From NCBI GenBank assembly GCA_017480525.1, contig JAFVAM010000050.1, positions 1-37,850 of the forward strand: a stretch of DNA of 37,850 nucleotides, in the 5' to 3' direction. The DNA is from Bacteroidales bacterium (GTDB lineage Bacteria > Bacteroidota > Bacteroidia > Bacteroidales > P3). Positions 9,969 to 13,028 of this stretch are shown here, piece after piece (position 1 is the stretch's first letter; each line of letters starts with the position of its first letter). The notes beneath the pieces were generated by a model. It searched no databases, was not told the origin of the DNA, and saw only the letters and a list, made by a program, of their open reading frames with translations. The position numbers and the translations under genes are program-made.

Positions 9969-10206
9969 GCTTGCATCTTTTTTCCCACATGAACGCCAGA
10001 CGGCACAATTTATTGCCTCACCGCAGCAGCAGGGTTGGCAGGAGGGCAGTCCTCGACGACCGATGTCCTCGGAGCGGTACAGGCCCGGCGGAGCGAGGTG
10101 GGGGTATGAGGATGAGATCTCTCGTCTTTCCGTTTTTTCAGTCTGCCAAAACAACGCAAATCATACCAATCGGACAAGTTTTTTCTCGGCCAAAGGAAAA
10201 AAGTCG

Positions 10207-10214
10207 TATCTTTG
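10207..10214 (+). promoter_or_regulatory. -7 box driving the long leader of the glycine-repeat gene
   Basis: TATCTTTG matches TAnnTTTG. The expected start point near 10220 would give a leader of roughly 330 nt before the ATG at 10554, which contains the structured element at 10304-10479. No exact TTTG -33 box is present; a T-run occurs at about the right distance. Confidence 0.6.
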
Positions 10215-10303
10215 CATCGTCGTTCCGTTCCCCGTAGCCGACGAAAAGACGGGCTGGGGGTGGGCGACAGGACATAATGAAAGACGTTGAGTTTCAGCGT
10301 TTC

Positions 10304-10479
10304 TATCTGCGCATATAGAACTTCGCAACTTCTAAACCTGATAGCATGATAGGATGCAATGGCTGAACGTCCACTGGCGAGGTATATACGTGTTTTCTGT
10401 GCATAGTATATGGCTCAGCGTGGGCTACGGCATTGCTTATCACTATCAGGGGCAATGCGAAGGCCTTATATGCGGGATA
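10304..10479 (+). ncRNA. Unidentified structured RNA element in the 5' leader
   Basis: The segment folds back on itself in nested perfect helices: TATC 304-307 with GATA 476-479; CGCATATA 310-317 with TATATGCG 467-474; CTTCGCA 321-327 with TGCGAAG 456-462; CCTGATAG 337-344 with CTATCAGG 443-450; TGATA 347-351 with TATCA 438-442; GCAATG 356-361 with CATTGC 431-436; GCTGA 362-366 with TCAGC 415-419; ATATAC 384-389 with GTATAT 406-411 (add 10000 to each). CCAC 371-374 with GTGG 420-423 could form a pseudoknot. An alternative hairpin GCATTGC/GCAATGC (430-458) would compete with the fold, as a switch might. It could be a cis-regulatory leader, a free small RNA or a mobile palindromic element. I match it to no known riboswitch. 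Confidence 0.6.
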
Positions 10480-10553
10480 AGCGATGATCACACTTAACCC
10501 GCGCTCTTTTTTTGTGTCTTGACAGAAACGGGAAAACAAACTCAAAAAAAGTC

Positions 10554-13028
10554 ATGACAAAAAGAAAATACACCATGAAAAGCCTCGCCTCCCTGCTGCT
10601 CATCCTGCTGGGCGGCACCGCAACCGCTGCGGCACAAGCCCCTGACACCTGGTACTCCCTGTCCACCAGCCGCACCGGCGACACCGTGCGCCTCAACGAC
10701 CTCGAACCCCACACCTGGAGCTACTACACCACCGAGAGCCCCATCCACAGCCTCAACCCCGTGGACGTGCGCATTGCCTACTATGGAAACGGAACAAATA
10801 CGGTGGCTACCTCCAACAATCCAGACCCAGGCAACACTTTCACAGCCTCGACCAACAACACTGTGAAGGTGGGCAACGACGCTTCAGAGAAAATCTTCGT
10901 ATACTACAAGACTCTGGAACGCGCCGACGGCGACGGCAGCGGCACCGGTCGCTGCCCCTACCGTACCATTGCCAACCCCTTCAGTGTACGCCCCACCTAC
11001 GGAACAGACAACACCACAAAATGGCGCGGCTTCTACAAATGGCGGCTGAAGAGCGCTCCCACAGGTGGCAACGTCTACAACGCTGCCGGTACCAAACTCG
11101 TCGCAAACAGCACGGTCGATGCCGAAGAAGAACTCTCATTCGAACTCTCCGGCACCAACAAATACATGAACGTGGAATTCGAGGCACTCTGGGCACGGGC
11201 CTACGTGAACCCCTCCTCAAACCAGGTCAGCAACGTGGAGCGTCAGTTTCGTGTGCTGACAACAAATAACCTTACGAGTGCAGTTGGCTATCCTGCCACT
11301 GTCTCTAACTGCTACCCGGACGGGACAAACAGCGGGGACTACACTGTAAATTTTAACACTAATGGTAGAACTACGTATACATGCTCCTACGATACCAAAT
11401 TTGAATACGTCAACCTCAGAATACGCAATCTGGACGGGAACGGGATAAACCTGACGATAGGGCGTGGCGTCACCTCTACAGACAACCGAAATGTTTATGG
11501 AATCAACAGCGGCTATTCCGCAAGCAATGTCAACACCTACGGCAATCTGGAATTCTCCCTGCGTATAGAGTCAGGCAACTATGGAAACTTGTATGTTTTA
11601 GGTAACAGCACCAACTACCGTGATTTCTATGGCACACCTACCATAAGGTGTACGCTTGGCTGCGACTACGACAGAGCTTATAGCAACACCGCGAACGACA
11701 ACAGCAAGCTGACAATTGCAACAGGCAATCAATACTATAACATTTACGGCGCTTCCGGTGCAAGATTTCCTTCCGCCGTCAACAAAAACCACCTTATGCT
11801 GGAATGGGTGATTAAAAGCGGAACCTTTAGCCGCACCGATCCAGGGACGGCTACAGCTGATCGAAGTATATACTTTGGTTGTCCAGGAGAACCTCAATAT
11901 GTCGGCAAAAGACGTCTAACTCTCGAAGGAGGGAGTGTGGCGAATATTGCCGGTTCTCTCAATCACTCTGATGCAAGAACAGGTGGTAACAGCGGATACA
12001 ACTACAATTCAACCTACACCGACTCAAGCGTCAACGATATGGTGAAAATCCGCGTCAGGGGCAACGCCATTGTGCGTGGCAGCATCTATGGTGCGGCGGA
12101 ATTTGCCGGTGCCGCAGGAGGTAGGCATTTCGTTTTCACAGGTGGAACCACAAAAGGATGGATTGCTGGAGGATGCAATGGTTCTCAGACCAATGGCGGT
12201 GAACTCTATGGCAACACTTTCATCTACTTTGGCGGCAAAGCAAAATGCAACAGCGGAGGCAGCACGACGACCATCAACTCGTCGACCGGTGGCAACATTT
12301 TCGGCGCCGGCAGCGGCATCACCGGCGGCGCCACTGTGGGCCAGGTGAGCCATTCCACTATCGTCATTGCCGACGACTGCGAGGTGGAGCGCAACGTTTA
12401 CGGCGGCGGCAACTACGGCTACGTCAACGCCGGCACAGGCCATGGGTCGGACATCTACATCCTTGGCGGCACTGTGACGGGCAAGGTCTTCGGCGGCAGC
12501 AACCAGCAGCAGGGACAGATTGTGAACATCACGATGAAAGGCGGCAAGGTGATAGGCGGTGTCTATGGCGGCAGCAACGAGAAAGGCACCGTGGCTGGAC
12601 CCGTCACCATCAGCATCGACGGCGGCACCGTGGGAGCTTCGGGCATCGACCCCGAAACCAGCGAGGAAGGCCATGTCTTCGGCTGCGGCTATGGTACGGG
12701 TACCGAGGTCAGCGGCAAGGTGAGCGTCACCATCGGTGCCGCTGGAGCAACGGCACACTCCGACAGCCCACTCATCAACGGCAATGTCTACTGCGGCGGT
12801 CACAATGCCGCTCATACCGTGGCTGCCGGCGACAACACATTCACCCTGACGGGTCAGAACGGCATGGTGATGGGTAGCGTCTTCGGCGGCGGTAAAGGAG
12901 AGACCGCCGTCATCCACGGCGACACCCACGTGCTACTGAAAGGCCACATCAATGTGAAGACCGATGTCTTCGGCGGAGGCCACAAAGGCAATGTCACCGG
13001 CTTCACCCACGTAAAAATCACCGACTGA
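10554..13028 (+). CDS. Secreted glycine-rich repeat protein, adhesin-like
   Basis: The start at 10554 gives 824 residues; an ATG at 10575 (MKSLASLLLILLGG) is the alternative and begins directly with the signal peptide, cleaved after AAAQA. The N-terminal ~550 residues are Thr/Asn/Tyr-rich and beta-prone. From about residue 580 a degenerate repeat recurs about every 25-40 residues: GNIFGAGSG, RNVYGGGNYG, GKVFGGSNQQ, GGVYGGSNEK, GHVFGCGYGT, GNVYCGGHNA, GSVFGGGKGE and TDVFGGGHKG. This suggests a beta-solenoid. Related Bacteroidales proteins usually continue to a T9SS sorting domain; this one stops inside the array with none. Codon use between ~11270 and 12040 looks more A/T-rich than in the repeats. 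It is the only plus-strand gene left of 14.9 kb. Confidence 0.85.
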   Translation: MTKRKYTMKSLASLLLILLGGTATAAAQAPDTWYSLSTSRTGDTVRLNDLEPHTWSYYTTESPIHSLNPVDVRIAYYGNGTNTVATSNNPDPGNTFTASTNNTVKVGNDASEKIFVYYKTLERADGDGSGTGRCPYRTIANPFSVRPTYGTDNTTKWRGFYKWRLKSAPTGGNVYNAAGTKLVANSTVDAEEELSFELSGTNKYMNVEFEALWARAYVNPSSNQVSNVERQFRVLTTNNLTSAVGYPATVSNCYPDGTNSGDYTVNFNTNGRTTYTCSYDTKFEYVNLRIRNLDGNGINLTIGRGVTSTDNRNVYGINSGYSASNVNTYGNLEFSLRIESGNYGNLYVLGNSTNYRDFYGTPTIRCTLGCDYDRAYSNTANDNSKLTIATGNQYYNIYGASGARFPSAVNKNHLMLEWVIKSGTFSRTDPGTATADRSIYFGCPGEPQYVGKRRLTLEGGSVANIAGSLNHSDARTGGNSGYNYNSTYTDSSVNDMVKIRVRGNAIVRGSIYGAAEFAGAAGGRHFVFTGGTTKGWIAGGCNGSQTNGGELYGNTFIYFGGKAKCNSGGSTTTINSSTGGNIFGAGSGITGGATVGQVSHSTIVIADDCEVERNVYGGGNYGYVNAGTGHGSDIYILGGTVTGKVFGGSNQQQGQIVNITMKGGKVIGGVYGGSNEKGTVAGPVTISIDGGTVGASGIDPETSEEGHVFGCGYGTGTEVSGKVSVTIGAAGATAHSDSPLINGNVYCGGHNAAHTVAAGDNTFTLTGQNGMVMGSVFGGGKGETAVIHGDTHVLLKGHINVKTDVFGGGHKGNVTGFTHVKITD

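Follow-up and report, generated by a model that had tools for sequence, protein, structure and literature searches.

The window analysed here, a stretch of 37,850 nucleotides from a Bacteroidales genome, carries ahead of a gene for a glycine-repeat protein a segment (10304-10479) that had been read from the letters as a series of nested helices unlikely to arise by chance. The question that this locus raises is what kind of element the segment belongs to, the options put forward being a new riboswitch-like leader, a free small RNA and a mobile palindromic element. The explanation that fits our results best, and that we hold to be probable, is an undescribed family of cis-acting leaders in Bacteroidales which would work in the manner of a transcription-attenuating riboswitch.

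In order to compare the fold of the segment with chance, 200 dinucleotide shuffles were used. On the forward strand 10304-10479 has a minimum free energy of -72.4 kcal/mol against a shuffle mean of -49.0 kcal/mol (sd 4.1; z -5.67) and none of the 200 shuffles was as stable, while on the reverse strand the same segment reaches a z of -3.45 with 1 of 200 shuffles equally good. The helices were found as previously noted, and chance folding was rejected on the basis of these shuffles together with the covariation presented below. The promoter box of the TAnnTTTG type expected 5' of the RNA is present as well. As to extent, 10304-10479 describes the core correctly, but the whole unit is larger and runs from the promoter box to about position 10518. 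The features of the window copy, all on the forward strand (+), are as follows.

10207-10214 (+), promoter box of the TAnnTTTG type, TATCTTTG, read in the sequence
10219-10268 (+), 5' domain in the window fold, a stem-loop GTCG...CGAC around CCCC/GGGG and GCC/GGGC helices (the region 10217-10272 folds at -23.8 kcal/mol)
10271-10286 (+), GACATAATGAAAGACG, A-rich 5' strand of the outer A/U pairing, in duplex with the U-rich strand at about 10503-10518 (-21.4 kcal/mol with the T-run region)
10301-10482 (+), family core covering 175 model positions, match to covariance model R1 (130.5 bits, the window copy being itself part of the model)
10302-10308 (+), P0 5' strand, partner 10475-10481
10305-10310 (+), pseudoknot 5' strand, of the TGCG(G):(C)CGCA type seen in the family, pairing with about 10344-10350
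10311-10317 (+), P1 5' strand, partner 10467-10473
10321-10327 (+), P2 strand CTTCGCA, a candidate loop-loop contact, partner 10456-10462 (TGCGAAG)
10338-10344 (+), P3 5' strand, partner 10443-10449
10348-10361 (+), P4 5' strand, partner about 10431-10441
10368-10425 (+), P5 (10368-10374 with about 10419-10425) and the variable central hairpin P6, the latter taken from the window fold only
10472-10502 (+), terminator-like hairpin GCGGG-A-TAAG...CTTA-A-CCCGC, which forms on folding 10471-10530 (-16.8 kcal/mol)
10507-10513 (+), T-run of the terminator, doubling as the 3' strand in the outer A/U pairing, read in the sequence
10575-13028 (+), glycine-repeat gene with a signal-like N-terminus, from the list of open reading frames (start likely at ATG 10575, with an alternative in-frame ATG at 10554)

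C-rich and G-rich arms resembling the 5' domain were seen by eye in many, not all, of 60 copies viewed. The competing hairpin proposed within the core can indeed be read in the sequence at 10431-10458 (GCATTGC/GCAATGC): the P4 3' strand GCATTGC complements a GCAATGC located beside P2 as well as its P4 partner. Since the same letters appear by eye in many copies of the genus, this alternative pairing may be conserved.

In order to examine whether the helices are maintained in evolution, relatives of the core were aligned. The covariance model was built from 23 copies with the terminator excluded; these (A4) are the 29 copies of a MAFFT/RNAalifold alignment (A3) minus six with long insertions, truncation or odd starts. 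Once three weak reverse-strand hits had been dropped, the 127 hits left over represented 118 distinct copies, 100 of which were fitted to the model as alignment A5. In A5, standard pairs fill 97.9% of the pair cells compared to 35-45% when partners are slid, 731 cells are changed on both sides compared to 71-104 when slid, and both-side changes occur in 27 of 42 model pairs. Given that A5 is fitted to the model and leans towards it, two other views matter. The MAFFT/RNAalifold alignment of 29 copies shows compensatory changes in 17 of 38 pairs, and a mutual-information scan of the 93 full-length copies among the 100, with core columns taken from A5, places in P1, P2 and P3 the 13 best-scoring of the column pairs that are at least 75% pairable. 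The homologues thus strongly covary in the helices, as a structured RNA with a conserved fold would.

Taken one by one, the helices differ in how much they have changed. P1 is altered on both sides in 7/7 pairs (93.6% of cells paired) and P3 in 5/5 model pairs; P4 (98.7% paired) shows double changes in 4/9 pairs, P5 (99.3%) in 3/6 and P0 (97.7%) in 3/7. P2 is paired in 99.9% of cells with 5/7 pairs double-changed, and a perfect 7-nt complement is kept in 115 of 118 copies, either as CTTCGCA/TGCGAAG or as one of six further loop types. G-U pairs are common in the helices of the family. The CTTCGCA/TGCGAAG pairing, read here as part of the nested stack, could instead be a loop-loop contact between two small hairpins. 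However, the hairpins that such a contact needs, HPa and HPb, fail the swap test: HPa, with double changes in 1/3 pairs, gives p 0.11, and the own partner of HPb pairs worse than swapped partners.

Swap tests, in which each copy's own strand is compared with strands from other copies, favoured the own strand (all p<1e-5) for five pairings, namely P0, the pseudoknot, the terminator, the outer A/U pairing and a complement found after the terminator; they comprise 99 copies, with kinship among the copies uncorrected. For the pseudoknot, raised as a possibility in the sequence-only reading, own strands are better in 65/99 (p 2.5e-6). It is probably a pairing of the family core, TGCG(G)/(C)CGCA, joining the 5' flank of P1 to the bulge between P3 and P4. 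By eye, divergent copies keep it with changed letters, e.g. TTTGAC/GTCAAA in L245, and the pairing was not seen in L260. In the window copy it is a weak, by-eye reading in which G10344 is common to the pseudoknot and P3.

The relation of this RNA to known families was next assessed with Rfam 15. At gathering scores the whole window returned two tRNAs only, and a permissive search (E≤10) of 10200-10600 (401 nt) gave one unrelated miRNA model at E 0.25. Twenty divergent relatives yielded just SRP RNA and tRNA nearby, and a permissive search (E≤1) of two further relatives was empty. Hence a match to an existing Rfam model, which would have spoken against novelty, was found neither for the window copy nor for the relatives tried, and assignment to a known RNA family was rejected. 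The literature search returned nothing tied to this RNA; subscription papers and supplements were mostly out of its scope, and an earlier description is therefore possible. Judged by its sequence, the RNA is a family new to Rfam 15 and undescribed as far as searched.

By BLASTN (E≤0.01) the own genome contains five matching places, two of which belong to the same copy, and 27 of 61 genomes have a match if the own genome is counted. With the covariance model, 89 of 120 genus genomes gave one to nine matches each (own genome counted), among them 51 of the 62 good ones. In a sample of the order, matches occur in 62 of 393 genomes and 33 of 206 genera (own genome counted), and in a sample of the phylum in 2 of 296, these being the own genome and one weak match of 39.7 bits. 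The latter (L261 1501-1626) comes from another family of the same phylum, keeps the 7-nt P2 complement and may be a distant member or chance. A pattern scan of the genome_contigs collection gave at least 117 stretches; 80 of these were passed to the model and at least 48 matched (48 of the 80 modelled); their titles all name Bacteroidales, Bacteroidia or Bacteroidetes, and many come from the rumen or the gut. Among virus-classified contigs, 0/50 matched from a genus-type pattern and 6/51 from a second pattern, which also brought one phage record; phage records gave none with one query and one with another, and plasmids gave zero matches with two queries.

The surroundings of the core were then compared between copies. 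A promoter motif lies at most 150 nt upstream of the core in 110/118 copies against 56/867 control windows of 150 nt. After the core, a terminator-like hairpin followed by a T-run was called in 107/116 copies against 9/562 control windows, and the nine copies missed still show by eye a candidate arm and a T-rich run. The hairpin of the window copy was not called by the consensus scan, which accepts loops of up to 8 nt only. The P0 3' strand, GGGATAAGC, also provides the terminator hairpin with its 5' arm and loop. In the swap tests own strands are better in 89/99 copies for P0 and own arms in 66/99 for the terminator; since own exceeds swapped in both, the two pairings both appear to be kept, kinship being uncorrected. 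For the window copy the predicted energies of the two states are close to each other, -111.2 kcal/mol when folding freely and -107.2 kcal/mol with the terminator forced. The best reading of this arrangement is an attenuator layout in which P0 and the terminator hairpin would compete for one strand.

The mechanism that such a layout suggests is the following. When P0 holds the strand GGGAUAAGC, the terminator would be blocked and the gene transcribed; when P0 opens, GCGGG would pair with CCCGC and transcription would halt at the U-run. A signal stabilising the core, be it a small molecule, a protein or a physical condition, would then switch the gene on. That the RNA is a cis-acting structured leader we regard as very likely, and that attenuation occurs by the terminator as probable.

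If the RNA is a leader, the genes behind it should lie in a constant orientation, and this is what was observed. The longest nearby ORF is on the same strand in 97 of the 118 copies and on the opposite strand in 4, with none in 12 and a contig edge in 5, and the median distance from terminator to ORF start is 66 nt; ORFs were called by simple longest-ORF rules, by which individual starts may be wrong. The nearest upstream ORF is strand-neutral (49:47). This 5' leader position, together with the promoter box in 110/118 copies and the compensatory changes, makes the riboswitch-like leader, the first option of the sequence-only reading, the best fit. A conserved upstream ORF or leader peptide was looked for by eye; one ATG is maintained within the genus, but divergent families do not have it.

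The genes that follow the copies turned out to be unrelated. By a simple hydropathy rule, secreted-looking N-termini are found in 57 of 105 downstream proteins versus 21 of 96 upstream ones. The Pfam scan first covered 78 of 99 downstream ORFs, of which 22 carry a BspA-type leucine-rich repeat (LRR), the remainder being diverse and including kinases; later it covered 120 of 154 downstream and 120 of 201 upstream ORFs, and with 120 proteins each 53 Pfam families were found downstream versus 125 among upstream neighbours. For the glycine-repeat protein of the window no Pfam family was found (E≤0.01). Most riboswitch regulons share a pathway; unlike these, the genes behind this RNA do not, and a single ligand or pathway among them was not found. 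The genes served appear to be mostly accessory: surface or secreted proteins, signalling proteins and some defence genes.

As for the latter, on one virus-classified contig (L297 5255-11347, reverse strand) the RNA is followed by BrxP (PADLOC E 1.5e-259) and then BrxC (E 0) of a BREX system, and on another (L314 1-1572, reverse strand) it stands ahead of BrxP (PADLOC E 9.6e-178). The other firm defence matches are TerY (L067) and the first part of a type IIG enzyme (L074). A defence regulon as the general theme was not supported, as PADLOC gave 45 families downstream versus 35 upstream (120 proteins each), no clear excess. On a third virus-classified contig, L265, the start of the sequence after the RNA resembles that of L297 and L314. 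Separately, peptides of 55-61 aa with a motif like EYxAPMVExxxARVExGF lie directly behind the RNA in seven copies (L112, L037, L012, L048, L007, L334 and L336), followed in the first five by a larger lipoprotein-like ORF.

Some copies also have conserved segments past the terminator. In 42/99 copies, versus 7.4 expected from shuffles, a stretch there complements the 3' arm of the terminator with a score of at least 7 (the threshold, with G-U counted half), and its letters differ between copies (GATTCCC/GGGAATC, GATACCC/GGGTATC or GACTCCC/GGGAGTC). The window copy is without this complement (score 4.0), and among BspA-type copies it reaches 7 in 0/19. Furthermore, about 20 of the 118 copies have one of two related motifs just 5' of the ATG (the pattern hit 24 times, in four cases within genes). 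In copies such as L003, L213, L218, L090 and L076, a few bases separate the ATG from a conserved segment like GTTGCGCCCGACACGTATTAGGG, in which a CCC/GGG hairpin could mask an AGGG motif. These segments after the terminator point to a role in cis in the copies carrying them. Speculatively, in read-through transcripts the complement may hold the terminator in its open form or exert its effect at the start codon.

These data bear on the other explanations as well. In nearly all copies a promoter box and a terminator-like hairpin bracket the RNA, as would be expected if it were a trans-acting free small RNA, about 300 nt long and stopped by a terminator of its own, with a gene behind it that is incidental or has a separate promoter. 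However, such an RNA would not account for the next ORF being on the same strand in 97 copies and on the opposite one in 4, the median gap of 66 nt leaves little room for a second promoter, and the complement and start-codon motif lie beyond the point where it would end; this option is weakened accordingly and we consider it quite unlikely. The leader could instead act mainly on translation or RNA stability, through a bound protein or through temperature, with a U-run that is structural and pairs with the 5' A-run. Indeed, conservation of the T-run is not proof of termination, because the 5' A-run is a further pairing partner of this run, and the own A/U pairing is better than swapped ones in 72/99 copies; the complement in 42/99 copies and the motif just before the ATG in about 20/118 would suit such a role too. 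Nevertheless, a GC-rich hairpin directly 5' of a T-run, as called in 107/116 copies, is simply what an intrinsic terminator looks like, and a leader of this second type seems unlikely to us.

A mobile palindromic element, MITE- or REP-like, landing upstream of genes by chance, would explain why there are several copies per genome and why the RNA forms a long, imperfect palindrome whose A-rich end complements its T-rich end. In 20 copies from four genomes, within-genome identity (mean 0.72, 40 pairs) exceeds between-genome identity (mean 0.65), and 13 of the 20 have their nearest relative in the own genome (0.69-0.83). On the other hand, within-genome identity reaches at most 0.83 whereas the between-genome maximum is 0.91, and three copies of genome G001 are nearest to copies of G004 (0.84-0.91), two of them before similar BspA-type genes. 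Given that copies of one genome are at most 83% identical in these four genomes, recent mobility is unlikely, and the copies may have been duplicated long ago rather than recently, as far as their sequences tell. Two identical RNA copies were found in a fifth genome, G074 (L338 and L339), where two contigs share a 1.8-kb block of 99.9% identity around them; since the block reaches a contig end, the pair represents a block duplication or an assembly duplicate. Recently dispersed, near-identical copies were thus not found in the four genomes and the one identical pair checked. Moreover, G-U pairs are common in the helices and the orientation to the next ORF is constant, which both argue against a mobile palindrome, and we regard this option as highly improbable.

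The attenuating leader being the preferred reading, a broader one can be put forward tentatively: a new class of signal-sensing leader may place unrelated accessory genes across Bacteroidales under one shared type of control, with two stacked checkpoints. The terminator would come first, then, in mRNA that has been read through, the segment capturing the arm of the terminator, and the genes under this control would comprise variable surface proteins, eukaryote-like kinases, and restriction and BREX operons, some of them on virus-classified contigs. As far as we know, only a few of the regulatory RNAs in Bacteroidales of gut and rumen are understood, and mRNA leaders in these bacteria tend to be short. 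According to one B. thetaiotaomicron map, most mRNAs have a 5' UTR of 23 nt (PMC7366714). A structured leader of some 300-360 nt that recurs before unrelated surface, signalling and defence genes would represent a new control layer for the variable genes of common gut bacteria. The RNA is in any case an orphan RNA that can be tested directly.

Among published systems, candidate RNAs of Bacteroidetes come from the same phylum, and some are palindromic or terminator-like (PMC2864571, PMC8040213). The first report includes Bacteroidales-1, Bacteroides-1, Bacteroid-trp and Bacteroides-2; in its table the first three bear Rfam numbers, and none of them surfaced in the Rfam searches made here, while Bacteroides-2 is listed without a number and hence lies outside that comparison (PMC2864571). 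The palindromic HMP2 candidates considered here, 38-132 bp long, are set apart from the present RNA by described length, not by sequence (PMC8040213). To us, the family, its gene set and the complement after the terminator are new, whereas the kind, a riboswitch-type attenuator, is already known.

Type III toxin-antitoxin loci such as ToxIN consist of a promoter, a pseudoknotted RNA, a terminator and a gene, with tandem repeats of the antitoxin RNA before the ToxN nuclease. The present RNA shares the order of promoter, pseudoknotted RNA, terminator and gene; in contrast, tandem repeats were not found at 10150-10580, the window gene has no Pfam match, and the genes behind the RNA are diverse. 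The c-di-GMP riboswitches (GEMM) occur in multiple copies per genome ahead of diverse surface and extracellular genes, and in this respect they are similar; they differ in that an Rfam match is absent here and the genus is without a detected GGDEF protein. Indeed, such a protein was found in 0/120 genus genomes by a search that was positive in 8/14 control genomes, which makes c-di-GMP unlikely as the signal. Finally, transcription-terminating riboswitches carry in the 5' leader a conserved folded core and a terminator arm that competes with a core helix, and they are present in several copies per genome. This RNA departs from them in having neither an Rfam match nor a known ligand and in standing before genes that share no metabolic pathway, but it has the leader position, the folded core and the multiple copies per genome in common with them, and its terminator arm is predicted to compete with a core helix in a similar way.
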